Assembly: GCA_035236585.1 (NCBI GenBank)
Contig: CP141128.1
Location: 30,982,684-31,046,683 of the forward strand
DNA from: Warburgia ugandensis
Taxonomy: Eukaryota; Streptophyta; Magnoliopsida; Canellales; Canellaceae
Reading direction: 5' to 3'
DNA length: 64,000 nucleotides
Position 1 is the stretch's first letter, and each line of letters starts with the position of its first letter. The position numbers were made by a program, and so were the translations under genes. Shown piece after piece: positions 9,815 to 63,447 of the stretch. The notes beneath the pieces are model-generated. The model saw nothing but the letters and a program-made list of their open reading frames with translations, was not told the DNA's origin and did no database searches.

Positions 9815-10038
9815 AAATTTCAAAATCCATCTAGTGGTTCACAGTACAATTTAGGTATCATTACAATATTTGTCCAAATTACATAATCCAAATTTCAAAG
9901 CTCACCATACAATAAAAACTCTCAATACAATACAATGCTCTCAAATAAAAAAATACAAGTCTTCAAGGGATATACCCTAATTGATAATTCTTCTAAGTCT
10001 TCTCAATTCTTGAGCTCCTAATTCTCCTTCTCTGTATT

Positions 10039-10088
10039 GAGATATTGTAAACATTCAAACGTTTACAATATCTCACAAACTATGCTTG
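10039..10088 (-). other. double hairpin in solo LTR 2
   Basis: A perfect 14-bp stem: GAGATATTGTAAAC (10039-10052) and GTTTACAATATCTC (10061-10074) with an 8-base loop. A second, weaker hairpin follows (CAAAC 10076-10080, GCTTG 10084-10088); its one imperfect pair is a G-U wobble on the sense strand. Confidence 0.75.
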
Positions 10089-23239: not shown

Positions 23240-23619
23240 TGATACCCTGGGTTTTTTCCCAAAAAACTTTTGCATTTATTTTGGAAAGGTGGTGCACTAG
23301 TATTTCTTAGAAATTCAAAACAGTGAAAAACATGTTATTTGAAATTCATTTTTCCAAAAACCCAGATGTCACCTCAACTCCCATACTATACATAATATAG
23401 TTTTTATAGAAGATAAACATGCATTTTATGAAACAACAGAACCCATCCAGCGGTTCGCATAGAAGCCCATATAATCATTATACTAAATGTCCAAGCAACA
23501 TAATCCAAATAACTAACTACATAATACAAAAACTTTAACAAAATATAAACTTGAGCGCAGAAGTATGGATGTTGAACTCCTCTTGCTTGTGTATGTCTTC
23601 TCTTACCTATTTGTTTATA

Positions 23620-23668
23620 AGATATTCTAAACATAAAACATTTACAATATCTCAGCAAGCTATGCCTG
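23620..23668 (-). other. double hairpin in solo LTR 3
   Basis: AGATATTCTAAA (23620-23631) pairs with TTTACAATATCT (23641-23652) at 11 of 12 positions. The second hairpin CAAGC (23656-23660) / GCCTG (23664-23668) has one non-Watson-Crick pair, a G-U wobble on the sense strand. Confidence 0.7.
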
Positions 23669-27239: not shown

Positions 27240-27471
27240 CTCTTTTCCTTGTTTTTCACTTAGATGTAAGACCAGCTCTTGTTATTTCTTTTCAATCCTC
27301 TTGCTCTTGCTCTTACTCTCTTGATTTATTTTTGGATTTCACATGCATCATATCAAATATTACTTTGAGATTATTGGAGTGTATTTAAGCTTTGATTTGA
27401 ATCAAGTGCTATGCATTAGAATAGTGCATAATTTTTAACTTTATTCTTTGTGTACATGTGCACAATTCATG
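27240..27471 (+). repeat. third Athila-type LTR copy, part b
   Basis: Continuation of the LTR interrupted at 23239. It ends at the left boundary of the Tekay insertion (cacaattcatg). About 500 bp that should follow, judging from the second copy, are missing at the far side of the insertion. Confidence 0.5.
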
Positions 27472-27669
27472 TGATGACCCGGGTTTTTGAAAACATGATT
27501 TGTAAAGTATTTTGAAAGGCAGGGCCCTTAAGAGTGTAAAATTTTTTCGCAAAACAAAGCAGCGGAAATTCTTTTCTTTAGAACTTGTTTTGAAAACCCA
27601 AGTCACCACTTCATACATAACATAAGTACAATTTGTGTACAAAATAAAATTCCATTGAAGGAATATACT

Positions 27670-27675
27670 TTTATT
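27670..27675 (-). promoter_or_regulatory. poly(A) signal of the 3' Tekay-type LTR
   Basis: AATAAA on the sense (minus) strand, about 200 bp from the LTR 3' end. Its position is shared with 9809-9814, 36726-36731 and 63238-63243. Confidence 0.6.
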
Positions 27676-27877
27676 AAACTCCAGGATCCATCCAGTGGTT
27701 CACAAGATTGACCCAAATCTAGTACAATACTTATCCAAATTACATAATCCAAAACTCAAGCTCACCATACAATAAAACTCTCAACAAATAAAAATACATG
27801 TCTTCAAGGGTATACCTTGAAGATTATTCTCTTCAAGTCTTCTATAGTCTTCAGCTCCTAAGTCTCCTTTCCTGGAT

Positions 27878-27921
27878 CTGAGATATTGCAACAAGTACAA
27901 TATCTCAGCAAGCAATGCTTG
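27878..27921 (-). other. double hairpin in the 3' Tekay-type LTR
   Basis: A perfect 11-bp stem, CTGAGATATTG (27878-27888) with CAATATCTCAG (27898-27908), directly followed by a perfect 5-bp hairpin CAAGC-AAT-GCTTG (27909-27921). Confidence 0.8.
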
Positions 27922-30900: not shown

Positions 30901-31264
30901 GAAAACCTGATTTATATGCCCAATTTAAAAAAATACCTTGTTGATGAAGATATAGCCTAAAATCCACCTTTCGTGCAAATACCGTTGTTTGAACCGTTGG
31001 ATCTTGAAATTTCTTTGGGGGTTTTGTAGAATAGATGTGTTAGGATGTTTTGGACGGTGGAATTGATCAAATTCGATCTAGAACAGAGTGCCTAATTGAA
31101 TTTAGGTCTCTTGTTCTAATCTAAAAAGAAAAACAAGTTGGAAAGAGATCTAGCTCTTGGAAATTTTGGGGTTTTGAGAGGGATTCTAGATCTAATTTTT
31201 CAAGGAGATTGAAGATAATTTCGTGGGGATTTTATGAGGATTTTTGGAAGATTTTTGGGGTTGC

Positions 31265-31271
31265 ATTTATA
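31265..31271 (-). promoter_or_regulatory. TATA box of the 3' Tekay-type LTR
   Basis: TATAAAT on the sense strand, about 610 bp from the LTR 5' end; the same element is seen at 40324-40330 in the other LTR. Confidence 0.55.
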
Positions 31272-31878
31272 GGCATTTTGGGTCTTTTTCCATGATTATA
31301 ATATGTTATTTTTTTAATATAAAATGGCATGAAAGTCTTCAATGCTCCCATGCCTAACTTTTCTTCCCCATGACTAGCTGATCTTTGTTGACCCATGTTT
31401 CACATGGGCTGCTGATCAAATTGGTTGTTGGGGACGTGGTGGTCCCCATGTGGGCCCCACATGGTGTAAAAATCCGTTTTGCCCTTTATGCATAAAACTT
31501 TGGGTTTTATTCCCATGATCTCGGATTTGAGTGTACTTAGTGGCGTTGGATTCGTATTTCTCAATACATTCTAAATTTTGATGTTTCATAATTTGATTTT
31601 TGGAATATTTTGATTTTTGGGTAAAATTACTATTTTACCCCTTTTGTCCAAAAAATGAAAAACTTAAGGATTTCTCATCCGAATTCGAAATTTGTTGTGC
31701 TTACAGTCATTTTGAAGGGTTTGCTAAGTTTAAATTTCAATTTTACATATCTTATTATTTGATTATACTTTTATAACAGTATATTTTAAATAACCCTAAT
31801 ATTTCAAATTTCAAAATATCTGAAATTCAAACTTATTTGATTTTTCTCAATCAATTTACAAAAATTGGGGTTATTACA

Positions 31879-31891
31879 ATCTTCCCCCCTT
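31879..31891 (-). other. polypurine tract of the complete Tekay-type unit
   Basis: AAGGGGGGAAGAT on the minus strand directly upstream of the 3' LTR. It is present in identical form at 40938-40950 for the truncated unit. Confidence 0.85.
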
Positions 31892-31927: not shown

Positions 31928-32302
31928 TTACTCAAACAAACTAGGGTGTGTCTTCCTCATTTCTACTTCCGTTTCCCACGTGGCTTCCTCAATAGAGTGA
32001 TGTTGCCACAGGACCTTGACTAACGGAATGCTTTTGGTTCTTAACTTCTGTTCCTTGCGGTCTAGAATTCGTATTGCCTTTTCTTCGAAGGTTAGGTCAG
32101 GCTTTAGCTCCTCTGGCACCCTTTGAAGTACATGAGTGTCGTCTTGGAGGTACTTCCTTAGCATAGACACATGAAAGACACTATGTATTTCTGAGAGTTG
32201 GGGTGGTAAGGCTAATTTGTATGCCACTTGACCAACCCTTTCTAAGATTTCAAACGGACCAATGAATCTAGGACTAAGTTTTCCTTTGCTTCCAAACCTC
32301 AT
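31928..32302 (-). pseudogene. integrase C-terminus and chromodomain, copy 1
   Basis: An open 124-codon frame: FGSKGKLSPRFIGPFEI (the GPY/F-type end of integrase), HSVFHVSMLRKY, then VKVLWQHHSIEEATWE, the chromodomain-like tail that tells chromoviruses apart and may guide insertion to chromatin marks. It is out of frame with the pol ORF, because copy 1 has one base more than copy 2 near 32380. In a working element it is the end of the pol polyprotein. Confidence 0.85.
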
Positions 32303-32372
32303 TACTCCTTTGACAGGTGATACTTTTAGAAATACGTGCTCCCCAACATCAAATTCCAGGTTTCTACGTCTT

Positions 32373-34589
32373 TTATCTCGCGTAACTCTTTTGTCGACTG
32401 TGTGTTGTTAACAACCTCTTCTGTATCAATCTGACCTTGTCTATACATTGTTCCACTAGTTCTGACTTTATCAGCCTTCTTTCTCCAACTTCACTCCAAC
32501 AGGTTGGTGATCGACATGGCCGTCCATACAATGCTTCATATGGTGCCATACCAATACTTGCTTGAAAACTGTTGTTATATGCAAATTCTACTAAAGGAAG
32601 ATGTTCATCCCAACTCCCTTTCCAATCTAATGCACATGCTCTCAACATATCTTCTAAGGTTTGAATAGTCCTTTCTGATTGACCATCTGTTTGAGGGTGA
32701 AATGCTGTATTGAGTTTAATTGAGGTTCCCAAGGCTTGTTGTACACTCTTCCAACATCTTGAAGTAAATCTTCCATCCCTATCCGAGATAATGGATAGTG
32801 GAATCCCATGAAGTCTTACTATTTCTTTGATGTATAACTTAGCTAAACTGTCAACTGATTGGTTTTGTCTAATTGGTAGGAAATGTGCTGACTTTGTTAA
32901 CCTATCCACCACCACCCAAATCATGTCATGGCCTGCTCTAGTCCTTGGCAATCCCACTACAAAATCCATAGTGATATTGTCCCATTTCCATTCTGGAAGT
33001 TCCAATGTTTGTAACATTCCAGCTGGTCTTTGGTGTTCAGCCTTTACTTGTTGACAATTTAGACATTTAGCCACAAATTCTCCTATTTCTCTCTTCATGC
33101 CTTCCCACCAAAAGTTTCTTTTTAAATCTTGATACATCTTCGTACTTCCAGGGTGTATAGACAACTTTGACTGATGGGCTTCTTGTATCAATTCCTTTCT
33201 CAGACATGTATTTGAAGGAACCACCAATCTCTCTTGAAAACGTATGCTCCCATCTGTCCCCTTAACAAATCCTTTCTTTTCACATAATTCCTGAGTTCTC
33301 GTATCTTCTTCTTGGGCTTTAAGGACTCTTTCTACAAAAGCTGATTTAATTGTGATGTTTGTCAGTAGAGCTCTTGGTTGTCTACTTAATGCATCAGCTA
33401 CTACATTTGCCTTTCCAGGATGGTATTGGATGGCAAAATCATAGTCTTTGATATACTCTATCCATCTTCTTTGTCTCATATTTAAATCAGCCTGAGTGAA
33501 GATGTATTTGAGACTCTTATGATCTGTAAATACATTGAATTTTTCCCCATACAAATAATGTCTCCAAATTTTCAATGCAAACACTACAGCTGCCAATTCT
33601 AAGTCATGTACTAGGTAATTTATTTCATGTTTCTTCAATTGTCTAGATGCATAAGCAATGACCTTCCCATTTTGCATTAACACACCTCCTAACCCTTTGC
33701 CTGAAGCATCACAGTATATTTCATATCCCCCACTCCCAGCTGGCAAGGTCAATACTGGTGCTGTAGTTAATTTCTTCTTTAGCTCTTGAAAACTATTTTC
33801 ACATTCTTCTGACCAAGTGAATGGTACCCCCTTTCTTGTCAAGGAAGTCATAGGAAGAGCTAGACGAGAGAACCCTTGAATGAATCTACGGTAGTATCCT
33901 GCTAGTCCAAGAAAACTATGTATTTCTGTTACTGTTTTAGGTTTCTCCCAATTCATTACTGCTTCAATCTTGGTGGGGTCCACTTCTACTCCATTCTTGG
34001 AAATTACATGACCTAAAAAATTGACCTTCTCTAACCAGAATTCACACTTACTAAATTTACCAAACAGTTTATGTGTTCTGAGGGTATTTAGTACAATTCG
34101 TAAGTGTTCTTGATGTTCTTTGATACTGGTAGAGTAAATCAGTATATCGTCGATAAATACTATCACAAATTTATCCAAAAATTCTTTGAAGATTCTATTC
34201 ATCAAATCCATAAACACTGCTGGTGCATTAGTCAACCCAAAAGACATGACTAAAAACTCGTAATGCCCATATCGAGTTCTGAATGCTGACTTGGATATGT
34301 CTTCATCCTTAATACGCAATTGATGATATCCTGATCTAAGATCAATTTTAGAAAACACCTTAGCAGATTGGAGTTGATCAAAGAGATCATCAATGCGTGG
34401 TAAGGGATATCTATTTTTCACTGTGACACTGTTCAACATTCTATAATCAATGCATAATCTCATTGACCCATCCTTCTTCTTGACAAATATTACTGGTGCT
34501 CCCCATGGTGAACTACTTGGTCTAACAAACCCTTTTTCTAACAAGTCTTGCAATTGTCCTTTTAACTCTTTCAACTCTGCTGGGGCCAT
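32373..34589 (-). pseudogene. Tekay-type pol: RT, RNase H, integrase (copy 1)
   Basis: 738 open codons. RT: LCIDYR (45-50), [10 protein letters not shown] with motif A Asp (81-90), FGLTNAPA (117-124) and FIDD motif C (145-148). RNase H: YCDAS (292-296) and FTDHKS (354-359). Integrase: zinc-binding His 472, His 479, Cys 509 and Cys 512; catalytic Asp 542, Asp 603 and Glu 639 with DD35E spacing. All key residues are present, which fits a young copy. The frame is separated from gag-protease by an in-frame TAG (34593-34595) and ends early at 32373 through a frameshift, so the chromodomain is lost. These enzymes copy the RNA and insert the cDNA. No start codon is expected here in life, since pol is part of a polyprotein. 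Confidence 0.92.
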
Positions 34590-34592
34590 CCT

Positions 34593-35801
34593 CTAAGGTG
34601 CTTTAGAAATTGGAGTTGTACAAGGAATTACTTCAATGGTAAACTCAATTTCTCGGTGTGGGGGTAACCCTGGTAGTTCTTCAGGAAAAACATCTTGGAA
34701 TTCCTTGACCACTTCAATTTCTGTTATCCTGGGCTGTTCAACATCTAATGAAACCACTGTTGCTAAAAATGCCTGACACCCCTTGGTCATATGTTTGACT
34801 GCCTTCATAGCTGAGATGATGAATTTGTCTAAGTCATTATGTTTCCCATACAGTGTTAATACTTGCTCTCCTGGTATACTAAATGTGAGTTTCTTCTTGT
34901 GACAGTCCATAATTACCCAGTATTTTGCTAACCAGTCCATACCCAATATGATGTCAAAATCCTCCATGTTCAACAAAATGAGGTCTATGTCCATTCTTTT
35001 GCCCAATACTTCTAGGGGTACATTATGCAAGTATTCTTGTAGTTTAATTATTTTTCCAACTAGAGTTGTTACATCTAAATCAAATCCCAAGTTTTTCACT
35101 GATAGTTGTATACTAGATGCAAATTCACAAGATATAAAGGAATGCGTAGATCCAGAATCAAACAATACTTTGGCATAGTTGTCTGCTACAAGTAGTGTAC
35201 CTTCAATTACCGCATTGGATGGTCCAGCTTGGCCGTCAGTGATAGCGAAAACCCTTCCTAGGTGTCGAGGAGCAATTTCTAATTTTGCTTCCTTGACTGC
35301 CAATGGTTTGGTACAGTGGGCGGCGATATGTCCATACTCCCCACAATTGTGGCACTTGATTGGAAATCGTTGTGGTTGTTGTTGTATAGGTCGTGGACAG
35401 ATATTGCCTTGGTGAAATTTTCTACATCTTGGACATGGCTGTCTATTTGGCCTTGGTGCATTATTCCTTTGATTTCTTTGAGGCTTAAAATTGTTCCAAG
35501 GTCTTTTATTCTTTTGGAAAGGCCTTGGGTTATTGTGTCCTCCTCCACTGAACTTGGTAATTTGACCCTTTTTGTACTCATCTTCAAACTTGGAGGCCAT
35601 TTCTACACAGTCTGTCAAGGTAGTGGGTTTAGTACCTAGCACCTTTACTTTTAGCCCTGAGTGAAGACCTTCAATGAATCGATCCACAGTGTGTGTTTCT
35701 GTGTCACACACATGAGGCGCGAATCTCCTTAGTTGTGTGAACTTGTTATCATAGTCCACTACTGACATATCCCCTTGCCTTAGGTTCAAGAACTCTATCA
35801 A
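34593..35801 (-). pseudogene. Tekay-type gag C-terminus (zinc knuckle) and protease
   Basis: About 400 open codons in the same frame as the gag segment upstream (stop at 35811-35813) and the pol segment downstream (stop at 34593-34595). A CCHC zinc knuckle CHNCGEYGHIAAHC is preceded by a second Cys/His cluster (CPRCRKFHQGNIC). The protease carries the active site LFDSGSTHSFIS and the ILGMDWL segment. The nucleocapsid binds the element RNA and the protease cuts the polyprotein. The frame is intact between the two stops. Confidence 0.88.
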
Positions 35802-35810
35802 TTTCCTTTG

Positions 35811-36410
35811 TTATACATGAGAAGGAAAATATTTATGGTTGAATACTTCCTTAAATTCTTCCCATGTAGTATCTTCAGAATTCGAGAAGAAGGTGTTTTT
35901 AGCTGATCTCCACCAAAATGCAGCTTCTTGTTTGAATAAATATGTGGCAAATTTCACTTTCAACTCTGAAGGAGTACGTAGTGCACTAAAAGTCTTTTCA
36001 ACTTCATATATCCATTCTTCAGCTTTTTCAGCTTCACCCTTACCATCATACATTGAAACCCTCTTTTGAAATCTCTCCAGCATTTTATCAATCTTTTCTG
36101 GTCCTAATGGGAATTTTCTGACTTCTTCACTTGGTACAAGGGAAGATTGCCCTTGTCCAGGTGTGGGAGTAGCTGGTGGTGGTGTTGGTGTAGTATGTCT
36201 CACCTCAGGCTGAGCCTGAGCCTGCGTACTTGGTATTTCTGCAGGAGGTGATGAACTCTGGGGCTGTTGTAGGTGAGGAAGGAGGTTCCTTAACATCCTT
36301 GTCATCATCTCTTCCATATTACTCATGGTTACTCTCTCCATATTGTCTTTTGGAGTGGTTTGAGCTGTCTGCCTTGTGACTCTCTTTGGTGGCATCTGCT
36401 CATAAACCAA
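35811..36410 (-). pseudogene. Tekay-type gag N-terminal part
   Basis: 199 open codons starting MVYEQMPPKRVTRQ. The second Met (MPPKR) is the more likely start by comparison with the family. A Pro/Gln-rich linker (about residues 45-90) precedes the capsid-like part (KMLERF, WIYEVEKTF, FKEVFNHKYFP). It ends at an in-frame TAA (35811-35813), after which the same frame continues, so one substitution has split gag. The leader between primer site and start is about 100 bp. Confidence 0.88.
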
Positions 36411-36510
36411 AATTCTATCAGTCCTCTATACAACTATTTCTATCTTAATCTAGACATGGATTATAATCTCTCTTTTGGACATATTTGTACTGTACTGTAA
36501 CTGGATGAAT

Positions 36511-36523: not shown

Positions 36524-36527
36524 ACTG

Positions 36528-39500
36528 TGATGACCCGGGTTTTTGAAAACATGATTTGTAAAGTATTTTGAAAGGCAGGGCCCTTAAGAGTGTAAAAATT
36601 TTTCGCAAAACAAAGCAGCGGAAATTCTTTTCTTTAGAACTTGTTTTGAAAACCCAAGTCACCACTTCATACATAACATAAGTACAATTTGTGTACAAAA
36701 TAAAATTCCATTGAAGGAATATACTTTTATTAAACTCCAGGATCCATCCAGTGGTTCACAGTACAGCCAAATCTAGTACAATACTTATCCAAATTACATA
36801 ATCCAAAACTCAAGCTCACCATACAATAAAACTCTCAACAAATAAAAATACATGTCTTCAAGGGTATACCTTGAAGATTATTCTCTTCAAGTCTTCTATA
36901 GTCTTCAGCTCCTAAGTCTCCTTTCCTGGATCTGAGATATTGCAACAAGTACAATATCTTAGCAAGCAATGCTTGGTAGGGGATTCAAGAAACATAATAA
37001 TTGACAATGTAATTCCAATACTTCATAATCTCATTATCCTCAGACATACTCTTTACTTTGTAAGTTATGTATATCTATATACATACATACATACCCTTCC
37101 TGGGTAAACCAGTTAAATTCGTGAAAATAGTCAAATATCATTCCCAACTAAGCTGATTAATTCTCTTCATTTTGAGAATTTAGTATTACAGCTAATCTCA
37201 TACTGGGAATTTCCCTTCTTGGGAAACATTGGTAATATACAATTACCTAGCATTTCATAATGCTATAACAGAAGGCATTTCACTATGCCTATTCCCATAT
37301 GCATCATAGTGCAAAATAATCAGAAAGGTTGCTATGCTGCAGTCTAATCCGTACTAGCGTGCTCGGATAACTGCCCTATTCACCACTGATACCACGGTGG
37401 AAAATATTATGTCATTGCCTGTATGGGGGGGCAAGACTTTCACAGTGGTGGCCTTCCCATAATTGCCACCACCCGACTTTTAGCCTCTCATTGGGCAAGG
37501 TATCATCATATCATCAAATTTCAAGGAGCGGGTGGCCAAACCCTCATAACTCCTCTAGCAATAGCATCCCCTAGGCTCATGCCTATTAAAACAAACTCAC
37601 AAGCCTCCAAGCTTGTATGTAAAATAGATTTCATATATATCAGACCATACGTCTGTTTACTTAGGGCTGAAATATTTTCTAGTTCCCTATTCACTTATAG
37701 TTTAGTCCTTAACCATCTTATAGGTGTTTGGTTGGATCATAAGGTTTTCAAGAGATTTACTACAAGTATTATCATTACTCATGTCAACATAAGATCATGA
37801 GTACAATCATGAATATCTCATGTAAATGCATTCATCAAATCCTCCTACCTTTAAGGATTGATCTCTTTTCCCCAATCTTCCATGATCTTGACCGATGTAT
37901 GCAATCTGTACATCCATACATATTGTCAATATATAAATTATGAACAATCCTATTGATCACTAGATCTGATGTTTCTTTAGATCATTCATATCTAAGTATT
38001 TTTCTATCTCTAAGTCTTTGTATGTTCATCTCCTTGATCTTGATCTTTCATAGATCCTTTGATTGACAATCTACTCATGTTGATAAAGATCAAGGTCCTA
38101 GATCTTCTATCATCTGGTTCTTCTTTGATCTAAGTTCAGTTCTTGGATCATCCCTATGGAGGATGATCTTGGTTTTCTTCCTTGAATCACCTTTGATCAA
38201 GGGTTTGGATTATCTAATCTAATGAACTATAACAAGTATACTACTAAACATACATACTAAGTACAATATAGTATTCTTATTCTTATTGTTCTTGATCATC
38301 CAAGATCTAATGGATCTTGTTTGATCGTCCTTATCTTTCTTACTGTTTTTATTAGGGTTAGACATTTTACTAACCTTTTATGCTCTTATTATTATTCTTC
38401 AACCAGTTAATGTGCTGATTGAAGGTAGCTTATTCAAGCCTAAGTCTAGATCGCTTCCTCTTATTTCCAATTGGCTAAGGCTTACTAGCTGAATGGGTGA
38501 ACACAAAGTGGTTACTTCAATCCTCATGTAAGGAGGCGTTTAGACCTCACAAACGTCAACAGAAGGTAGGGGAAGAGCGAGGCTCTATTAGATAACCCCC
38601 TTAACCACTATGTTCATCATTCACTAGAATGACCATAGCTCAACCTTTCATAAGGTTCCTATAAGCATGTTTACCCTAAGTAATCTTTCTAATGGATTTT
38701 AATTAAGTCCATGAATATTTATAATGTCATTCATGGGGTTTATTATTCTTTTCCTAATTTGGGCTAAGGATTTGATAATCCTTATATTGTCCTACTAACT
38801 ATAGCCCTTACTAATTAAGTCCAAAGTACTTCATTCTTATTTGTGTCATGAAACTCTACTTTCTCATTAGAATACATTTTTGATGTTTTATGCTCTTTAT
38901 CTCATAACAAGTAAATCTACTACTAACATTCAACCATAAATGAATTATAAATTTAAAGCATAAAACTACCTAATTTAACATTCAATGAAAATGAGGCAAG
39001 GTACTTAAATTAAATCTAGCACCTTATGATAAGAATGAACACATATCATACTAAACTCTAAATGTTATACTAGCATGCTTTATAACATAATAACATAAAA
39101 TGAAACTAATTATATTTACATTTTTAGAAACCTTTACTTATGATCCAACCATTTGATCTTAGATCTTTTCCTTTGATTAAGGACTTTAGTTATATTTAGA
39201 GAATTTTCTCCATTAAGGTCAAAAGATCACATTGATCTATTTTTATCATAATCCATCCATGATTTCCTTGGATTTCATCATATAAACATTTATTCTTTCC
39301 ATCCCAAGGATCTGATCACACTTGATCTCATTGATCAAGTGGGTCCCTTTGTATTATTTTTTTTGGGTTTTTCTACCATAAAGGGTAGATCCCTTATTTT
39401 ATCCAAGATCTGTCCAAATTAACCATAGATATTACTTTATTACATTATTATATCATCGCTAAAATAAATTTCCAAGATCTGATCACCTCAGATCTTGAAG

Positions 39501-40937
39501 ATCTTAGAAATTGGACGCTTATTTCCAAAATACGTAAAAATACGTAAATAAATTTTAGAAATATTATGACTTCATTAGAAACTAGACATTACAAGCTTTC
39601 CATAGCTTCTTTATGATCTCAATTTGGAGTTCATATGACTCCACAATCTTAAATTGAAGTTTTCAGCCGTTCCTAGGGTCCAGATTTGATCTAGGCCCAC
39701 CAGAATTAATCTCTCTCAATTGAGGATCTAAAACTGCTCAGATCTTTCTGAAACTTCTACCCTAAGGGCTTTGGACCATTCTGGATTGATTGGTGGAGTC
39801 AGATTTTTCATCGGAGCACTCCATCATCATGAATTAAGGGTTCTGTTGTTTACCTTATTTTTACCTTTTTATTACCAAAATTAATTACAGTAAAATAAAA
39901 ATTACATAAAAAAATACTAAAAATATATGAAAAGGATTTCCACTTACTTGATTGGAGAGAAAACCTGATTTATATGCCCAATTTAAAAAAAATACCTTGT
40001 TGATGAAGATATAGCCTAAAATCCACCTTTCGTGCAAATACCGTTGTTTGAACCGTTGGATCTTGAAATTTCTTTGGGGGTTTTGTAGAATAGATGTGTT
40101 AGGATGTTTTGGACGGTGGAATTGATCAAATTCGATCTAGAACAGAGTGCCTAATTGAATTTAGGTCTCTTGTTCTAATCTAAAAAGAAAAACAAGTTGG
40201 AAAGAGATCTAGCTCTTGGAAATTTTGGGGTTTTGAGAGGGATTCTAGATCTAATTTTTCAAGGAGATTGAAGATAATTTCGTGGGGATTTTATGAGGAT
40301 TTTTGGAAGATTTTTGGGGTTGCATTTATAGGCATTTTGGGTCTTTTTCCATGATTATAATATGTTATTTTTTTAATATAAAATGGCATGAAAGTCTTCA
40401 ATGCTCCCATGCCTAACTTTTCTTCCCCATGACTAGCTGATCTTTGTTGACCCATGTTTCACATGGGCTGCTGATCAAATTGGTTGTTGGGGACGTGGTG
40501 GTCCCCATGTGGGCCCCACATGGTGTAAAAATCCGTTTTGCCCTTTATGCATAAAACTTTGGGTTTTATTCCCATGATCTCGGATTTGAGTGTACTTAGT
40601 GGCGTTGGATTCGTATTTCTCAATACATTCTAAATTTTGATGTTTCATAATTTGATTCTTGGAATATTTTGATTTTTGGGTAAAATTACTATTTTACCCC
40701 TTTTGTCCAAAAAATGAAAAACTTAAGGATTTCTCATCCGAATTCGAAATTTGTTGTGCTTACAGTCATTTTGAAGGGTTTGCTAAGTTTAAATTTCAAT
40801 TTTACATATCTTATTATTTGATTATACTTTTATAACAGTATATTTTAAATAACCCTAATATTTCAAATTTCAAAATATCTGAAATTCAAACTTATTTGAT
40901 TTTTCTCAATCAATTTACAAAAATTGGGGTTATTACA
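36528..40937 (-). repeat. shared middle Tekay-type LTR (4410 bp)
   Basis: 5' LTR of the complete unit and, at the same time, 3' LTR of the truncated unit. Ends are the same as in 27472-31878. TATA box at 40324-40330 and AATAAA at 36726-36731 on the minus strand. The differences from the other LTR are scattered substitutions and small indels, for example near 30470 versus 39530 and near 27717 versus 36766. Confidence 0.9.
36932..36975 (-). other. double hairpin in the middle Tekay-type LTR
   Basis: CTGAGATATTG (36932-36942) with CAATATCTTAG (36952-36962): one pair is lost by a single change (A-C on the sense strand). Second hairpin CAAGC-AAT-GCTTG (36963-36975) is perfect. Confidence 0.75.
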
Positions 40938-40950
40938 ATCTTCCCCCCTT
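40938..40950 (-). other. polypurine tract of the truncated unit
   Basis: Same AAGGGGGGAAGAT as at 31879-31891, directly upstream (minus strand) of the middle LTR. It shows that this LTR is also a true 3' LTR. Confidence 0.85.
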
Positions 40951-40986
40951 ACAACAATTTCGCCCTCGAAATTTGTAATACAGTAC

Positions 40987-51258: not shown

Positions 51259-53986
51259 TGTAACAATCCCAAATTTTGTAAATACTATTCTGGGCATTAT
51301 TATGGGAAATTGAAATTTTGGAATATAATTGGAACTTTGACTTAGAGAAAACAAATCTTTATATAGAAATGGAATTTGGAATGGAAACATGAATATTTGG
51401 AATGTACTCAAAATATTAAGTCCAACGACATCAAGAATACTAAAATCTGAGTTTGAACGAATTTTACCATAAAATTTTACTATTTCATGATCAGGTTATG
51501 AGGTTTCAAGGATTATATCTTTTTATAAAAGTATAATTTGAACTAAAACAAAAACCAATAGACAGTACTCATAAAATGGAATCCAATAAGCCAAAGAATG
51601 CTGAAAACAAAGTCCAGATGAAGAAGTTATGGGCCCTTGAAGTTAGGGGCAATATGGTAATTAAAAAAAAATACATAACTTAACGGAAGGGGGTCAAATT
51701 GATATTGGCACCCCCCTCACATTGGAAACCCTATGTAATGTTGGGCATGTCTCTCTCTCCTCTCTCCAATCTCCCTGCTCCCTCCCCGAAAACCCTTTTC
51801 CCAGTGATAGAAAGAAATGCAAAACAGGGTTTTCCAACAAGTAGCCATTCACCTCCCCTAGGGTCCTGCCTTTTTCTGGTGATAAGGAGAAACCCGAATT
51901 GGGTCTTCTCTAGTGATTCCTCTCCCACCTGATCTCCCTATCTCTAGCTTCTGCGAGGCCCTCCTCTGTTGAGCATTTTCTGGCAACAAAAAGAAACCTA
52001 GATCGAGTTTCTACAACGATCCCTCCCCTCTTGCTCTCTGGTGATGGCAGACAACCCATATCGGGTTTCCTCTTTTGGCCATGCATGTGGTTTTCCCCCA
52101 CTTTCATTTCTCCAATGGGATTGACCAAAACCTTGGTGGGTTTCATTGATGAACAACTGGGCCCCCCCTCTCTCTGACGTTGATAAAAATAAAAAATAAA
52201 AAAATCCCAAATTGGGATTTCACTAGCAAGCACCATTTCCCATCTTCATCACAATGCTCCACCTACTATGTGTTTGACAAAAACCATTACAGGGTTTCTT
52301 TTCTTCTGCAACATCTTTCTGGCAACCCTCAAACCCTTTCCTTCTGGATTTTCAGTGACCATGAAGAAACCCAAATTGGGTTTCTTTAACAAAACCCCAA
52401 TCAGATTCTTGGGCGTGGCCTAGCCATGAATGGGCAGTGTGCTTAGACCCCAACCACTTGAGTTTTTCACCTTTCCCTCTTGTCTTCTGCAAGGCACAGC
52501 ACGACTAGGCCTCTCAGCCAGCTAGCTAGCGTACCCAGATCATCCCCACAATCTCCCTCTCTGTGATTATTCTTTATTGGGTCCAAGCAGAGGAACCTTA
52601 CGATCATCTATGACTAGCACCAAGTTTTTTCCTCTCAATTGTATTTTTTGGTGGCCAAGATTAGACTATGCTCAGTCTGGCTACCAGTCACCACCACCTC
52701 GATCTTCCCTCTCACTAGCATGACCTAATTTAACCCTTGACCTCCAAACCTAGATTCTGAGCAATCTAGGAGGAGTTTTGGAAAATTTGAGAGTACCCTC
52801 GCAATCCTTGTGATGTGAGAAACAAAACCTCTCTTCCCAATTTATGATTCGGGAAGATCCAACTGTTGAATTTACCTAACCATTGATCGAGGGTCAGATC
52901 TTCTAATTTGTGATGATCTGATTCCATTTTTCAAATCCAAATAGTCTATCATGACCATTAGGAAATGTAGATCAAGAATTCAATGAGATATTTAGGATCA
53001 AAAGTTAAGATTTTGTTGATCTTGATCAACGACTGAGATCAATGAAGGATCCAAGTAAGGAAATTGATCAAGCTCTATGATCTTGGTCAATTCTACCTAT
53101 TTAATTAGACTATTCAATTAGAAATTACTAATTGATTATTTGATTTGGAGGGTACAGGTAAAAACGAGGATTCCATTAGCTAGTGGAAAATGAATGAACT
53201 CACCACACGAGGTAAGTGGAGAATTAAGAAAGCATATCTTAATAGTAAGATGCATGTTTTTAAACATGATTTTATTCTTATGATAGATATTATATCATTT
53301 GAATTTGTGCATTTCATATGATATATGATGATGAAAAATGTTTACTTGTGAATGATGAAAATTTGTGATTTTAAATGCGACATGAATGACAAGATTATAA
53401 TTGAATCCTATTGAATGGTATTAAAGGATACACATGATCTATTCTTACAAATACCATAACTGTCATTGTGATAAATAGACATTTATGGTACATGGGCACC
53501 ATTACATCATATGTGATGTATGAGTCAATGATTTTACATTACATGCTTGGTGGGTGATCACCTAATAAGTGAGAATGTTATGATTATGATGTGATATTCA
53601 TATATATATATATATATATATATTATGGATAGGCAAGACACTTGTATATTATTATTTTACATCCAAGCATGGTGGCCTGAGAGTTTTGTTTTAGATAGGC
53701 ATAGGCATGGGGATGCTATGCTAGGAGAGTAGTAGGGTTTGGCCACCCTCTCTCCTAAATGTGATATATATGATGATACTGTGCCCAAAGAGAGGCAAAA
53801 TGTCAGGTGGGGCAATATGGGAAGGCCACCACTATGATGGTCTATCTACCCATATGGATATGACGTAGATGATTTTTCACACTTGGTATCTATGGAGTAT
53901 GAAAGCAGTTATCTGAGCACGCTAGTATGGATCAGACTACAACATAGTACTCCTTGTATTTGATGCACTATGGTGCATATATGATA

Positions 53987-54101
53987 GCATGATGAGATGC
54001 TTATATGATGGCATGATGAGATGCCTTACATGATGATGGCATGATGAGATGCCTTATGTGATGGCATGATGAGATGCCTTATTTGAGGCATGATGAGATG
54101 C
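53987..54101 (+). repeat. palindromic 16-mer array in solo LTR 4
   Basis: Five spaced copies of GGCATGATGAGATGCC or one-base variants, on average about 25 bp apart, each with inverted ends. It corresponds to the array at 24234-24345. Confidence 0.8.
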
Positions 54102-54658
54102 TTTTTATGATGTTACTAGCAGCGGCTAGAATTGTATGAACCCTGTCTGGTAAAGGGTATATGTATGAGACCCAGTACAGTATGGGAATGGAAGTTATAA
54201 AACCTATGGACTATGTTCATAATTTTGTATAGCTTTTAACAATTTTAATATATATGATATATGTATATACTGGAGGGCATAGTTTCATAAAAGTTTTCGT
54301 TTGGGGAAGTGAATGGGTAGATATATTATGCAGAGTATGGTTCATAAAATTTGAGTATCGTATCATATGAAAAATGATAATGATAAATATTTAAAATACC
54401 AATGAATTATGTATATTAAATATATCATGTAAAGTGTAATCTATAAATTGTGATTATTATATTCATTTGATGAAGAAGAATTATAAATAGCTATTTTATC
54501 AATGGCTTGTAGATAATTGAATTATTAATGAAATTATTGTATTATGAGCTAAATTGTAAACTTCATCCCATATACTCATTATGATGAAATTGAATAATTT
54601 AATTGATGAAAATTCTTAATTCATATGTAATTAAAAAAATTTCTTAACTCTCCCCTAC

Positions 54659-54710
54659 CAAGCATAGCTTGCTGAGATATTGTAAATATTTTATACTTAC
54701 AATATCTCAG
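54659..54710 (+). other. double hairpin in solo LTR 4
   Basis: Perfect 5-bp hairpin CAAGC-ATA-GCTTG (54659-54671), then a perfect 14-bp stem CTGAGATATTGTAA (54672-54685) with TTACAATATCTCAG (54697-54710), loop 11 bases. 376-428 bp from the LTR 3' end. Confidence 0.85.
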
Positions 54711-55086
54711 ATATAGACATACAGGAAAGACATACACAAGCAAGTGGAGTTTAGCAGCCATACTTCTGTACTCAGGTATATATTTTGTTAAATTTTTTGT
54801 CTTATGTAGTTAGTTATGTAGATTATGCTGCTTGGACATTTAATATAATGATTATAGGGGCTGTATATGCGAACCATTGGATGGGTCCTGGTGTTTCATA
54901 AAATGCATGTTTATCTTCTATAAAAACTATATTATGTATAGTATGGGAGTTGAGATGACATCCGGGTTTTTGGAAAAATGAATTTCAAAGAACATATTTT
55001 CGGCTATTTTTGAATTTCTAAAAATATTGGTGCACTACCTTTCCAAAATAAATGCGAATAATTTTTGGGAAAAACCCGGGGTGTCA

Positions 55087-56120
55087 TAGATATATACCGT
55101 GGACTCTATGGGAATGACTAATGCCTCTGACCAAGCGAGGTAATATTACTGCCAACCCAATAGTTATAATATTATCCATTTCAAATGGGAATGGTAAGCA
55201 GGTAGTAGCATTCAAAGCCATGGTAATGGACACTCGCTTGGTATGTGGTGGCATACTAATTCGATGCAAAACATTTGATTCATGCTCATAGTATGAACCA
55301 ACTATCATGATGTCTCTTGGGTGGGAATTTTCTTTTTGAGGGGTGCTAAATGTCCTTCATGATCTTCTTCAGTTGAGGAATTGTAGCTAGAATTTGATAG
55401 AGATACAAGGGCACTGCGAGAATTACATGTAGGGGATGGAGTACAATTATCAAACTTCCAGCATGCAACTAACTAAATATATCAGTTTTTATTTTCTCAA
55501 CATGCTCATTGTAGGCCTCCTCATCATTTTGAACTATAGGTAAATGTCCTTTACCAAAGAATTCAGATGGAACAACACCACAACCGATTCTCCTAACTTG
55601 ACTAGGGTGGTCCTTCTTATTTCCCATAGCCATATACAAGATGCCCTCCTTGGCAGAAGTATTGCTTAGATTTCCTATATTTGTGCTTTCGTGGGTAAGA
55701 ATGTCCTACAAAATTTAATTAGAAAGACATGATCATGTCATATAAAATTGTATAAAATTTATAGACATGTGGAACAACTTACTATACGAAAAGCAATTTG
55801 TGCAATACTTTCATTTAAGAACTTGTTTCCAGTAAGGCCCATTGAATGCACCATCTTCCAGAGGATGGAGTGATCAATGGGTTTCATAGTCCAAGCTTTC
55901 TTTTACTATCAAGCAAAGACAATATAGTTAGAGAACAACAAGTATATAATTATAATACCATTATATTGAAAGGTATAAATTGTCATAGATGCTTACATCA
56001 CACTCTTCTAAACGAGTGTAGCCCAACCAGGATAGGTGGTGCTGCATACTTGTTTCATGTGCCTTTCTTCTCCTTGCGCTCTTCACTTGCACATTTGTAC
56101 ATGCATGATCAAGTGCAGTA
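55087..56120 (-). pseudogene. CACTA gene middle exons
   Basis: Three coding pieces on the minus strand. Near 56000-56110: RRRKAHETSMQHH and WLGYTRLEECD, the segment that follows Transposase_24 in plant CACTA proteins. At 55480-55710: about 80 codons without a stop (DILTHESTNIGNL, HPSQVRRIGCGVV, SEFFGKGHLP). At 55084-55308: KRVSITMALNATTCLPFPFE and IGLAV, matching the domain often annotated DUF8039. They are separated by AT-rich intron-like sequence. Function unknown; such proteins are encoded beside the TNP2-type transposase. Confidence 0.7.
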
Positions 56121-56774: not shown

Positions 56775-58644
56775 TACTACAAAGAAGAACACACTGATAT
56801 TGAACAATGACATAAAATAGTCCATGTAATTCATTTAAAGAAAACAAACTGACATGACCTATGTGGCAAACAAACTGAAAGCAAATTAGATAAAACATGC
56901 ATGAAAATAGAAACTTTCTAAAGTATAAATGTTTCTGAAATTAAACTTTTCTAAAACTAAACCTAGAAACTAATTTGCATGATTCCAAGTAAATTAGGAT
57001 ATAAGTAAAGCAATGTTAACATGCATGACTCTAGCCATCACATAGCATATGTTTATACACATTCGTTTGCACTCATATAAACATGACTAAAACAATTTAT
57101 CTTTATGTAAGCAACTGTTACCATTAGACAATCAAGAGATACATCTTAAAGCATTTACTAGTAAGCCTGCATGTATGTCTTGCTGCATCTTGTTCATGCC
57201 CATTTCTGAAAATGTGTTATAAGTCATTATTATCAAAATGATCTTGCATGTACAAGGACCACGTATTGATTAGTTATGGGAAACAAGCATGTATTTGCTT
57301 TAGTTTTAATCCCTTTTAGCCCACCTATATTCTTAAGAATTTCATTACCCCTTGTCCTCAAGCATATACACACACTCATCTTTTGTTCTTAAACACAGTT
57401 AGGTGAAATGGAATTTAAAACTTGAGTGGCATGTTTCTTTTCTAAAGATTAATATTTTCTAATAAAGGAGTGCTACATTTCTACCAAAATCCAACAGTCT
57501 CCTCTATTTTTTGTACTTATGAATTTTATGCATGCGAATGCAATGTCCCTGATAAACATAGTTTAATTCAAAAAATAAATAAAGGAGACTATCTCCATCC
57601 ATTCACATAAACATACAATATCTAACATAGTGGCAAACAAACCATAAGCAAATTAGATAAAGGATACATAAAAATATATGCCTGTTTAGTATGGATATTT
57701 GTAAGAGTAAGGGCTACAAATCCCATAGACCTTTCACTAGTCTTTAACTCCACTACTTCGAGTTCACATCTCTTAGTGGGAAAGATGCACCCCACAGCGA
57801 GTTTGTTGTCATAGCTTGCTAATAGTTGTTCATAAGTTTGATTAAGGGTTGAACTTCTTAATTTTAGATTACCATATGTATTTGATTGATACTAAGCTTT
57901 CAATGTTTACTTGTGCCCAAAATACTATCGAAACAGACTCTTATAAAACTAAAGAAATGTAATAACCAAAGAAGTGCAAAAACTGTAATAATAAAAGAAC
58001 TGTAAGCAAAACAAGATGATCAAATTATAAGGTGGAAAGTGTGTGTGCATGTTAGCTTGTAAGTAAAGTAGAATTCTTTATTCCTCTCTGTCTAAAGGTA
58101 AAACATAACTAATATGTACTTCTTACAAATACTTGGAAAACTTTACAAGAACAAGAGAGTTATTGTAGTTTCTCAAATATAAAGAAGTTTGGAAGAAGAA
58201 GAACTCTCCATCGAAAATAAAGCACAAATGTAAAGATTAGACAGAGAAGGTCTTCAAATGAAGTTAAGTTAGTGTTTCTTCTTAGTTCCTTATTTTGCTA
58301 CCTTTGTTTTATTGTTCGTTTGATCTTTGATTCCATACTTTAGTTTCCTAGCATAATTGTCTTGCTTTCATTGATTCTTACCTCTTATTTTGTTCCTTAT
58401 AACCTTGAATCTAATCTACAACTCTCTTCTAATGATAGATAAGAAAGCATTGTTCTTAAATTAAGTACGTTGCCATCTTTCTCCTTAAATTTCTCTCTCC
58501 ATTTCATGTTTTCTCTTTCCATTTTTTCCCTTTTTCTTTTCATAAGCAACTTCATGATTTACATGCATGTTCATTGTTGCTTGATAGTTGGATGATTTAA
58601 GATAGATTAGAAGTTGATTTTAGGTATTGTAATTAGCTCTAAGT
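56775..58644. other. unassigned AT-rich stretch
   Basis: No sustained ORF, no recognisable domain and no AGCGACTTC-type repeats. It may contain the lost 5' end of the CACTA element. TAAGT at 58640-58644 would be the left target duplication of the next LTR element. Confidence 0.4.
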
Positions 58645-59217
58645 TGTAATGCCCCTAACTTTTGTAAGGAGATTGAATAAATAATGAAATTGAAAATTTT
58701 AAGGAAAATCATGCTAGAATATTAGGGTTACTAAAAAATGCAATTCTCATAGAAGTATAATCAAGATATAAGACATGCATAATTGAAAACATACTTGACA
58801 AACCCTTTTAAGTGACTATAAGCACGTCAAATTCTGAGTTTAGATGAAAAATCTTTATTTTTCTCCATTTTTAAGGGTAAAATGATAATTTTAGTAATAA
58901 CTAAGACCTATGACATCAAGATTTAGAATGTACTAAAAAATATGAATCTAACTCCACTAAGTATGCTCAATTTCAAGTCTGGGAGAATAAAACAGATTTT
59001 TCTCCATAAAAGGGAAAAATGGTCTTTTCACACCTCCATGAGGGCCACGAGGGAACCACAAAGGGATCCAATAGCTAGAAAACATGTCATCATGAGTCAA
59101 ACCACTACCATCATCTAGTGGATAAGGAGGAAGTAGTGGGAATCCAAAGACAATTTAATAATAAAAAGAAATCAAACATGATAATTACATGTAATCATGG
59201 AAAATTCCAAAAGCCCC

Positions 59218-59225
59218 TATAAATA
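59218..59225 (+). promoter_or_regulatory. TATA box of the 58645 LTR
   Basis: TATAAATA 573 bp from the LTR start, matching the position in the other Tekay-type LTRs (510-610 bp). Confidence 0.6.
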
Positions 59226-62200
59226 GCTTATAAAATTCCCAAAAATTCTCCTAATGTTCTTCATGAGGTCCCCTAGAATGCCCCAAAACCCCAGATCTTA
59301 AATCCTCCCCGATCTCACCAATTGCTCTTTCTTTTTCTCTCTTTCTCTTATTCTCTGTGGGCACGTCCACATACGCACCCGGGCAGACAACCCCATGTCT
59401 GCATTGAGTGCGTCCAGGGGCACGTCATCCTTGACGAACTAGGGTTTCCACCTAGGAAACCCTAATCCAATTAGCGATCCAATTTCACTTTTTAGAATCC
59501 GGTCTCCGCCAGTGGATCTGTTCAAAATGAGGAGATCTACAAAACCCCTAAAATTTCATGATGATCCAACAGATGGATCTCCCGAAAATATCAAAATGAA
59601 AGTCAAGCACAGTACTCATTCCATCTCCAATAAGTTCTATCAGTTTTTTCAGCCAATCTGGCCATTAAACAGTGATCTTGCATCGTTGAATGTCTTCATC
59701 ACAAGGTGATATTCAAAACCCCATAATCCCAAACCTTCTCCGACAATGGAACTGGAGAAATCAAGGACTGAATGTATTGCTGGCATCTAGGGTTCTTATC
59801 TCTTTTTTCGGTGAAATATCTCCTTCCTCAAGTGAAATTCCTTCATCAGACTAGCACAGGTAGGCCCCCTCACTCTCTACTTTCTATTCTAGTATGTCGT
59901 TGGTGTTTTCTAGCACACAGGGGATCTCCTAGACTACTGATCCGTTGGGAACGATGGATATGGAAATAGGGTTGAGATCAACCATCTTGGATAGCTCATA
60001 TGAAACTTCTAAGCCATTGGATGGATTTCTAGGGCCCAAAAACTTCAGGAGATGAAATTTGGACAGTTGGATGTAAAGGATGGAGGAGATTCAGTGAGGG
60101 GGATCTAACAGTCTAGATCTGGACCGTCTCGCCTATAGCCGGTCACCTCCGCCCAACTACTGGGAATAGGCAGTAACGAGCGCTGGCCGCTGGTCGTCCC
60201 AGCACTTGTAAGCCAAGATTTGATCTGGGCCGTCCAAAATTTTAACTAAAATCTTAATTCTTCAATTAAGAGCTCAATTTAGCTCTGATTATAGATCTGA
60301 AAGCTTCTATAAAATCCTTATCACTTGTAAAAGTTACTGAACTCATAAGATCTGTGTGTTCATTTGTATTTACTTGTGATAATTAGCAAAATCTATACCA
60401 ATAGTAGTGGAACACCATCTAGATGACCTTAAAATGAAAAACTGAACCGATAGATGGGTTCAGGAGGTCTCAAAAACCTACAGATTATGAACATAATAAG
60501 ATTTCCACATATATAGATCAAGAAATTAGACAAAATCAATAAGATCAAATTTCAGCCCTTAAAACAAGCTGAAATCTTAAAATCCCAACTCTGATCTCAA
60601 TTTAACTCCAAATTGAGATTGGAAGGATGGGTGGGATTCCTCCTGGTGAGGAGAACTTACTGAATAAATAAAATCATAAGTTTAATTCATTAAATGTTCT
60701 GAATCTAAGTAGATAAGTGTACTAACATCCTTGATCTACAAGATCTGGGATGATGAGACCATTCAAACCATGTTGATGATGATTTAATAATATACTCACT
60801 TAAATAAATGCATTATATGTAATTGAATTTCCAAATCTTAAGAGATCTAGCCTTAAAAATAGCAAAATCCATAAAAATGAATGGTAATCTCCTTGATCAA
60901 GTTGATCAAGGAGGATTGGACAGCATGGATGTATTTTTATGATGATATGAAGTTAATATCATATGAATTGATGGATTTGATGATGATGATTTGGGGTAGA
61001 TTAAGATCTATGCCCTTAAATTGGATAAAATGACTTGAGATCTTCTTGATTGGTTTGATCAAGAAGGATCAACTCATTTGATGAGAGGCATCAATGATCT
61101 AATGATGTAATTACATTAAGAAGATGTATTAGATCTAAAACAAAATGAAAAGATCAAGATCTAAACCCTAAAAGAGATGAAAAATGAATAGAAATCAACT
61201 ACAATTGTTGGATCATGAAGAATAGTTATGGCATGTTAAATTTTTATTTGAATTATTGAATGTTAATATCGTCCTTTTATTGCTTAGTAGATTTAATTAT
61301 TTAATTATTTATGTTTTAATGCTTATGTTATGAAAATTACATTAAAAATGTAATTAAATGAAAATTAGAGTTGAAGGACAATTACATGGAATGAATGACA
61401 TGGACTTAATGGTAGTAAGGGCCATAGTTATTAGGATTATATAAGGAACATCACTTCCTTGGCCCAAATTAGGAGAATAATGAAACTTCATGAATGACAT
61501 TTAATGTTCATGGATTTAATTAAAATCAATTAGAAAGAGTATTTAGGGTTGAAATGCTCATTGGAACCTCATGAAAGGTTGAACTAAAGTCACTCTAGTG
61601 GATGATGAACATGGTGGTTAAGAGGGTCATCTAATAGAGCCTCACTCTTCCCCTACCTTCCATTGACATTTGTGAGGTCTAAACGGCTCCTTACATGAGG
61701 ATTGGAGTAACCACTTTGTGTTAAACCATTCAACTAGTAAGCCTTAGCCAATTCAACATAAGAGGAGCTGTCTAGACTTAGGATGGAATAAACTATCCTC
61801 GACGAGTAAAACATTAACTGATTGAGTAATAATAAAAAGGGCATAAAAGGTTAGTAAATTATCTAATCTTAATAAAAATTGTAAATAAGATAAGGAAGAT
61901 CAAACCAGATCCAAGAGAGATCTGAAAAGATCACAAACAAAAAGAAAAGAAATATAATGTAGATTGTAGTATGAGTTTACATGTAGTGTAGATTGTCAAC
62001 TTAGAAGGTTTGAAACCTTGATCATATATGATTCAAGGAAAGTTAGGGCATCCCTCATAGGATAACCCAAATACATGTAGAAAGAATACTTGTGTAGAGG
62101 AATAACTTTATACGTAGAGTTTGACAGATGTATGAATCTAGACCATGATGCTACTTTGAGGTAGGTGGATGTACAAGAATGTATTAAGGATTCATGTGTA

Positions 62201-62963
62201 TACATACATGAACTTTTGTCTAGAATTATAGACCTTGATGTTATAAGTATATTTGGTACCTTAGCATGATACTAATCCAACCACATGATCCAACTAAGTG
62301 AACAACCCCATTATCTAATTTAACTAATCCAATCTAATGATCTAATCAAATGAGGTGAAAGTAATGAGATGTGTTGACTAAGGAAACCTAAGAATAGGGC
62401 ATAGAAAATATTCTAGCCTTAGTTAAACAGACACATCGTCTGATATGTACAATGTATTTTACATACAAGCATGGTGGCTTCTGATTTTGTTTTGCATAGT
62501 GCTAGGATTGGGGATGCTATGCTAGGGAAGTTATGAGGGTTTGGCCACCCACTCCTTAAAATTTATATGATAGATACCATGCCCAAAGAGAGGCTAAATG
62601 TCTGGTGGGGTAATCATGGGAAGGCCTCCACTATGACAGCCATGGTCCCCCCCATGTGGACATGGAGTTATTATTTCGACAGTTGGTATCAGTGGATAAT
62701 TGTGCAGTTATCTGAGCACACTGTATGGATTGAGACTACAACATAGTAGTCCTAATGTATTTTGCATTATGATTCACATATGATAGGTATATTGAAATGC
62801 CATGGCATGATGAACAAGTTTTGAGAAATCTTCACTATTTTAACTAATTTTAATAATGTATATACTCTATGTTGAGATAACTCATGAGTAGATAACCATG
62901 ATGGAATAATGACTGAGGTATATATTCTTATATTGGTGAAGTAGTATATTTTTGTATCCCTAC

Positions 62964-63016
62964 CAAGCATAGCTTGTTGAGATATTGTAAATGTTTTAAT
63001 GTTTACAATATCTTAG
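62964..63016 (+). other. double hairpin in the 58645 LTR
   Basis: CAAGC-ATA-GCTTG (62964-62976) is perfect. The following stem pairs 62977-62991 with 63002-63016. Two outer pairs that are C-G and G-C in solo LTR 4 are U-G and G-U here, so the stem is kept in RNA of the sense strand. Confidence 0.8.
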
Positions 63017-63237
63017 ATATAAAGAAGGAGAATTTGAAGCTCATGACTTAAGAAGATTTGGAAGAATAATCAATCAGGGTATATTCCTTGAAGGCATGTA
63101 TTTTTATTTTGAGAGCATTGTATTGTATTGAGAGCTTTTAATGTATGGTGAGGTTTAAAATTTGGATTATGTAATTTGGACAAGTATTATACTGGTATAG
63201 GGTTGTACTATGAACCATTGGATGGATTTTGGAGTTT

Positions 63238-63243
63238 AATAAA
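63238..63243 (+). promoter_or_regulatory. poly(A) signal of the 58645 LTR
   Basis: AATAAA about 200 bp before the LTR 3' end, in the conserved ggatttaataaa-type context (here ggagtttaataaaa). Confidence 0.6.
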
Positions 63244-63447
63244 AATATATTCCTTAAAAGAAATTTTATCTTGTACAAAAATTATACTTATGTTATGTAT
63301 GAAGTGATGACTTGGGTTTTTCAAAACAAGTTTTAAAGAAAAGAATTTCTACTACTTTGTTTTGCGAATTTTTTTTACTACTAAGGGTGCCCTACCTTTG
63401 AAAAATGTATTACAAAATGTTTTACAAAAGCCTGGGTCATTACAGTT

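Follow-up and report, generated by a model that had tools for sequence, protein, structure and literature searches.

Retroviral leaders carry hairpins before gag, near the primer binding site, among them the HIV-1 SL1 dimerisation site and the packaging signals. The element described here would share with them a place in the leader and dimerisation through self-complementary sequence. It differs in that its loops are not uniformly palindromic, its two hairpins abut, and it lies inside the long terminal repeat (LTR), so that the DNA copy has it a second time at its 3′ end.

For Ty1, palindromic PAL sequences were suggested to mediate dimers, alongside a leader pseudoknot and priming by tRNA-iMet; the RNA structure of yeast Ty3 was called uncharacterised in the same 2016 review, cited here in part (PMC4974528). 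The present element would resemble the Ty1 and Ty3 leaders as a cis-acting 5′ RNA structure of an LTR retrotransposon, and differs from Ty1 PAL and the Ty3 leader in sequence and place (PMC4974528). In long retroviral R regions, residual conservation has been linked to stem-loops; the chromovirus model of that study is Sushi, and the portion of it used here describes no such hairpin for plant chromoviruses (PMC3601003). Sireviruses possess an inverted repeat at the junction of polypurine tract (PPT) and 3′ LTR as well as palindromic RM boxes, which likewise are conserved, non-coding inverted repeats of diverged plant elements; however, they belong to Ty1/copia and lie at the PPT junction or are repeated upstream of the TATA box, whereas here one tandem double hairpin stands before the poly(A) signal (PMC2829016). 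Our literature search, which covered few subscription papers, found no published description of such a double hairpin in plant LTRs.

Double hairpins and their host LTRs

The window, meaning the whole 64-kb stretch that was analysed (G000:C3:30982684-31046683), holds seven copies of the element, here W1 to W7. An earlier note on this DNA had claimed the same two adjoining hairpins in seven LTR copies; all seven are present where it placed them, and each folds as sense RNA. When short stretches are folded, a 5-bp hairpin (hairpin 1) is followed directly by a longer one (hairpin 2) in 7/7 copies, with z-scores of −2.4 to −6.5 against dinucleotide shuffles. Within LTR contexts of 561–617 nt the mean pair probability of hairpin 2 is 0.73–1.0 in all seven copies, and that of hairpin 1 is 0.58–0.99 in six. 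Hairpin 1 of W6 reaches a pair probability of 0.02 in its LTR context, which counts against the reading preferred below.

Two copies lie on the plus strand. W6 (54659..54710) consists of hairpin 1 at 54659-54671, with CCCCTAC just ahead of it at 54652-54658, and hairpin 2 at 54672-54710; W7 (62964..63016) has hairpin 1 at 62964-62976 and hairpin 2 at 62977-63016. The minus-strand copies are W1 (5232..5277; hairpin 2 at 5232-5263, hairpin 1 with loop AATA at 5264-5277), W2 (10038..10088; hairpin 2 at 10038-10075, hairpin 1 at 10076-10088, CAAGC-ATA-GTTTG with one G-U pair), W3 (23617..23668; hairpin 2 at 23617-23655, hairpin 1 at 23656-23668, CAGGC-ATA-GCTTG with one G-U pair), W4 (27878..27921; hairpin 2 at 27878-27908, hairpin 1 at 27909-27921) and W5 (36932..36975). 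W4 represents a short-loop family, and W5 is its near-identical duplicate with one broken pair (CTAAG/CTCAG). According to self-comparison of the window, the segments holding W4 and W5 are 99.25% identical, so the seven copies stand for five clusters. W1 is a decayed member of the GAGGCATTGC/GCAATGCCTC group. The T:A to C:G change on both arms that had been reported for it is real, with two such double changes, but the copy also holds one T.C mismatch. In most of the loci read, a CCTAC- or ACCTACA-like stretch precedes hairpin 1 by about 7 nt; it may belong to the element.

Self-comparison delimited the host LTRs, which are about 3.8–5.0 kb long. W7 lies in an LTR at 58644..63444 (plus strand), directly followed by the primer binding site TTGGTATCAG, and W6 in one of about 3.8 kb at 51259..55088 (plus strand), with a TATA-like TATAAAT at 54482 and AATAAA at 55047. 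W4 and W5 occupy the two LTRs, each about 4.4 kb, of one minus-strand element at 27470-40938: W4 in the LTR on the integrase side (27470..31879), W5 in that on the gag side (36526..40938), whose end is followed by the primer site TTGGTATCA. The letters TTGGTATCA stand directly behind the LTR in two elements (LTR at 36526 and LTR ending at 63444). We take TTGGTATCA/TTGGTATCAG to be a tRNA-Met-type primer binding site; its position behind the LTR sets the sense strand, on which the order is CCCCTAC, hairpin 1, hairpin 2.

The internal region of element 27470-40938 (31928..36425, minus strand) contains four separate open frames with matches to gag, protease, RT/RNase H, integrase and SH3/chromodomain-like sequences. 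RVP_2, RVT_1, RT_RNaseH and Integrase_H2C2 score above cut-off, in that order; gag is matched partly, and rve falls below its own cut-off while the integrase zinc-binding domain is matched. The element thus has the Ty3/gypsy order of gag, protease, RT, RNase H and integrase between LTRs. It is likely a chromovirus: SH3_Tf2-1 matches with E 1.3e-29 and Chromo with E 1.4e-4 (22.1 bits, under the cut-off of 25.1), and PF00385 is carried by some among the 120 relatives listed. Long LTRs and a tRNA-Met primer site are marks of the Tekay/Del clade; both are present, and it is from these two marks that the tentative label Tekay is drawn. The GAGGCATTGC group, comprising W1 and most of the loci L054-L099, is represented here by LTR pieces alone, of which L054 shares the LTR end CCCGGGGTGTCA.

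Several further features of these LTRs were observed. Their 3′ ends are ACCCGGGTCATCACA- or ACCCGGGGTGTCA-like across otherwise diverged families (63420-63444, 36526-36550, 55070-55088 and L054). The LTRs of W2, W4 and W7 have GTGAACCACTGGATGG-like letters ahead of AATAAA and a TTCC...GGAA inverted repeat after it, common to families. W4-family LTRs recur in one orientation at steps of about 9.06 kb (C1:58874746, 58883816, 58892874, 58901940 and 58910996; likewise 27470-43624 in the window), which are probably tandem LTR-internal arrays formed by unequal recombination; three more are spaced at about 9.3 kb near C1:55.04-55.06 Mb. A direct repeat of about 1.85 kb (47428-49278 and 49419-51257, 85% identical by self-comparison) is apparently unrelated to the hairpin LTRs.

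The element keeps its place within the LTR. From the end of hairpin 2 to the LTR end we measured 378–430 nt in six LTRs of the window and, by hand count, about 510 nt in L054. The six window distances correct the earlier figure of about 380–480 bp from the LTR 3′ end; the LTR end belonging to W1 was not located. Among 13 representatives, drawn from 10 clusters with some clusters used twice, AATAAA lies 235–395 nt past the element start in 12 and 138 nt past it in W1, so at the level of sequence the element does lie before the poly(A) signal, as the earlier note stated. The distance to the LTR end and the position before AATAAA place the element probably in the R region, and hence in the RNA leader. 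TATAWAW words occur 38–295 nt upstream in 9/13 representatives; shuffled sequence holds 0.7–2.2 such words, so the transcription start, and with it the R region, can only be inferred.

Recurrence across the genome

The genome searched comprises 1.12 Gb in 14 contigs. A 31–32 nt antisense motif with 28 fixed letters has at least 4,018 exact matches in it, and its reversed control none. Three patterns of different loop length, one of them allowing up to 3 mismatches, match at least 2,864 (that pattern), at least 1,668 (the W4-type pattern) and at least 3,225 places, or at least 7,757 together, with 0, 0 and 1 matches for their reversed controls; all pattern counts are lower bounds, and since the three patterns differ in the spacing between ATTG and CAAT they should not count one place twice. 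A further pattern, with 14 free bases ahead of CTGAGGCATTGC, matches at least 3,341 places (control 0). Among the 100 of these places listed, hairpin 1 fills the free bases in every one, at least 4 of its 5 pairs being standard as read by eye. The listed places (100 of 1,668, 50 of 3,225 and 100 of 3,341) are all on contig C1, and their pair states were read by eye.

Conservation is concentrated in the element. When 35 LTRs are compared across their 10 clusters, the element reaches an identity of 0.82, against 0.36 for the upstream and 0.50 for the downstream flank, the element's figure being inflated because 28 of the 35 rows were picked by the 31–32 nt pattern inside the element. W1, which was not picked in this way, has identities to the nine other clusters of 0.22–0.32 upstream, 0.49–0.55 in the element and 0.26–0.38 downstream. 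The view that strongly diverged LTR families have retained the double hairpin is supported, and a second large LTR group adds to this support.

A model built from 28 copies was also run on 276 kb, the window together with chunks taken without any pattern. It recovered 14 full copies with E 9e-8 or better, 12 of which belong to the model itself (L051 and L053 are outside it), and one more copy cut off by a chunk end. The element is present in 8/8 LTRs of this sequence with matches to both flanks. A downstream-flank match without the element occurs at L046:2270-2555, where what lies upstream seems to be unrelated sequence and the LTR may have been cut; other such matches, in L045 and the window, are short (37–44 nt). 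L035 and L041 carry the element on an upstream-flank match, their downstream flank falling outside the chunk. The remaining upstream-flank matches are L046:9414-9988, which reaches the chunk end, 32 nt in L037, and window 24286-24560, which is the LTR of W3.

Hairpin 1 precedes stem 2 in each of the 46 loci that had been selected by stem 2, in L067 with a shift of 4 nt as read by eye. A MITE or other separate insertion was rejected on account of this constant neighbourhood and of the steady distance to the LTR end in six LTRs. Outside this genome, the motif was found in 0, 1, 2 and 4 stretches over four IMG/VR searches and in 1 stretch of the GTDB genome contigs; the contexts that were read look unrelated, so these matches offer no cross-plant evidence.

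Exchange of stem pairs and covariation

Stem 2 exists in two fully Watson-Crick versions, GAGATATTGT/ACAATATCTC and GAGGCATTGC/GCAATGCCTC, which differ at three pairs (A:U to G:C, U:A to C:G and U:A to C:G). Among the 50 places listed of 3,225, the second version is paired in 30 and the first in 5, with a wobble or mismatch in 15; the pattern behind these places fixed GAG..ATTG and CAAT..CTC and left only the other pairs free. The second pair of stem 2 varies in the same manner among the 100 W4-type places listed of 1,668: T:A in 82, C:G in 5, T.G in 6, C.A in 4 and others in 3, a co-change with Fisher p 0.0007, or 0.004 after leaving out one of two C:G places 8.5 kb apart. As CCGAG/CTCGG holds a CpG, decay of the C:G version may have produced part of the single changes. 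L053 shows a G:C to A:U exchange. Conservation is poor at the outermost pair of stem 2, which is C.A in 10/100 listed W4-type places.

Hairpin 1 has compensated versions too: CAAAC-GCAA-GTTTG in L056 and L078, and CAAGT/ACTTG and TAAGT/GCTTA each in 1/100 of the places listed of 3,341. All five pairs are standard in 36/45 copies not chosen for hairpin 1. The commonest form among those 100 is CAAGC-GATA-GCTTG (e.g., from C1:387845), and the loop GCAA of L056 and L059 is a GNRA-type tetraloop. The idea that stem changes tend to keep pairing gains new support from the three-pair Watson-Crick replacement and from these compensated hairpin-1 versions.

Loops are far less constant. The stretch from ATTG to CAAT measures 9, 10, 17 or 18 nt, and the apical loop is TTCGAA in one cluster and TTTGAA, TTTTA, ACTTGTT or TTTGTTTT in others. 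Most members lack a palindromic apical loop, the mark of a retroviral-type dimerisation site, and a kissing loop was discarded as a defining feature because the loops vary.

Pairing was assessed statistically on two alignments. The smaller, of 28 rows, contains the seven window copies, five chunk copies and 16 loci out of L001-L028, the 28 picked by pattern; the larger, of 75 rows, adds L051, L053 and the loci L054-L099 except L067, which was dropped for its shift (45 of 46), these 46 being taken from the 50 places listed for the 3,225-match pattern. All 75 rows come from one genome, and 46 are distinct. In the 28-row alignment 94.3% of cells pair, a value reached by 0/500 shuffles, and sliding the partner by 1–3 columns lowers pairing to 28–41%.

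On significant covariation, by which the earlier note would have had its claim judged in a deep alignment, these rows from one genome gave a divided answer, with no single pair below E 3.9 and significant pooled pairing. For single pairs we used our own R-scape-like null, in which substitutions are re-dealt among columns along tree branches (60 sets). None of the 17 pairs was significant in the 75 rows, the best values being E 3.9 and 4.7 at two neighbouring exchanged pairs, because exchanges happened once or twice, on few branches. Pooled over the 17 pairs, 1221 of 1275 cells are paired in the 75 rows (null mean 1142, maximum 1219; reached by 0/1000), 730 of 782 in the 46 distinct rows (0/1000) and 223 of 238 in the 14 pattern-free rows (2/1000), an excess to which unequal column conservation can add, as this null moves changes to any column. 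The count of cells changed on both sides was reached by 6, 6 and 118 of 1000 nulls in the same three sets and is thus not significant for the 14 pattern-free rows; Watson-Crick types were not significantly numerous in any set (72, 272 and 214 of 1000). Overall, the structure of the double hairpin is well supported.

Wobble pairs were less informative. Since the arms are reverse complements, decay should yield G-U and A-C about equally. Without the outer pairs, G-U stood to A-C at 13 to 9 among the 100 listed W4-type places and at 5 to 10 among the 50 listed of 3,225; in hairpin 1 the ratio was 11 to 2 among the 100 listed of 3,341, four of the 11 being in CpG. The 75 rows gave 32 to 14 (p 0.011) without outer pairs and 45 to 29 (p 0.08) with them, counts that overlap the rows of the 50-place count and are not independent of it. 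Such contradictory numbers led us to drop this comparison as evidence for RNA over DNA. The G-U wobbles once put forward as evidence for the hairpins follow no rule, as decayed-copy counts point both ways.

Possible functions of the element

We hypothesize that the double hairpin acts in cis as an RNA element of Ty3/gypsy chromovirus LTRs, placed in their probable R region, and serves dimerisation and packaging of genomic RNA, a tentative reading to which we give a probability of about 0.42. The element would comprise three parts: a few CCTAC-like letters, a 5-bp hairpin whose loop has 3–4 nt, and an adjoining hairpin of about 12–17 bp with a variable loop. From its place in the probable R region it follows that every genomic RNA would have one copy near the 5′ end and another near the 3′ end. 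Gag or nucleocapsid may recognise the genomic RNA through it. The long stem, being self-complementary, could form either an intramolecular hairpin or an intermolecular duplex; the near-palindromic sequence would mediate dimerisation, and the element would serve packaging as well.

Among the functions proposed, we would rank dimerisation and packaging first. A genuine leader or 3′-end RNA element might instead act at another step, such as first-strand transfer, control of leader translation, RNA stability or 3′-end formation, which we regard as possible though rather unlikely: lying before AATAAA and within the final 0.6 kb of the LTR, it would probably be part of strong-stop DNA and present at either end of the RNA, but strand transfer and scanning are usually impeded by stable hairpins, and the 235–395 nt from element start to AATAAA in 12/13 representatives are long for plant 3′-end signals. 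3′-end processing in particular looks less likely, as about 170 nt or more separate the end of the hairpins from AATAAA in those 12. That shared ancestry without selection explains the pattern, with template-switch (quasi-palindrome) correction in reverse transcription keeping the arms matched, seems improbable. Through such correction one arm can be overwritten with a copy of its partner, and the three-pair exchange lies on one or two branches; however, correction does not account for the persistence of hairpin 1, short as it is, of the CCTAC-like stretch and of the position within the LTR while flanks diverged to 36% identity.

The inverted repeat could also act as DNA, as a palindromic protein-binding site or a cruciform in the promoter or silencing region of the LTR. 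The repeats are near-perfect and lack a consistent G-U excess, and palindromic repeated motifs of Sirevirus LTRs have had regulatory roles proposed for them (PMC2829016). A binding palindrome should, however, keep its letters, whereas here three pairs are exchanged on both arms, the ATTG-CAAT spacing varies and two different hairpins adjoin in fixed order. From letter exchange at constant pairing, variable loop length and this fixed order we infer an RNA structure, and consider a protein-binding palindrome or cruciform unlikely. Least probable is a miRNA-like hairpin that draws or dodges host silencing through small RNAs, as the stem is short for a plant miRNA precursor. Hairpins of maize LTR elements do have more small RNAs than other parts, but Ty3/RLG elements show no obvious structural peak in the part of that study cited here (PMC10760457). 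Rfam gave no match at gathering score in the whole window; at E up to 5, region 54480-54800 had three weak matches, none convincing, two being animal miRNA families on the antisense strand (18.9 and 15.4 bits; gathering scores 88 and 80).

Returning to dimerisation and packaging, a broader proposal is more doubtful: that CCTAC and the double hairpin form an undescribed RNA family, the packaging and dimerisation signal of most long-LTR chromoviruses in this genome and perhaps in many plants. If true, plant Ty3/gypsy elements would have in it their first defined cis-acting RNA structure. A large share of many plant genomes consists of chromoviruses, and our literature search found no account of how their RNA is selected for packaging. 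A conserved, countable element would give a direct handle on this question, open to probing and Gag-binding tests, and may also serve to detect degraded LTRs with little other alignable sequence and to tell their orientation.
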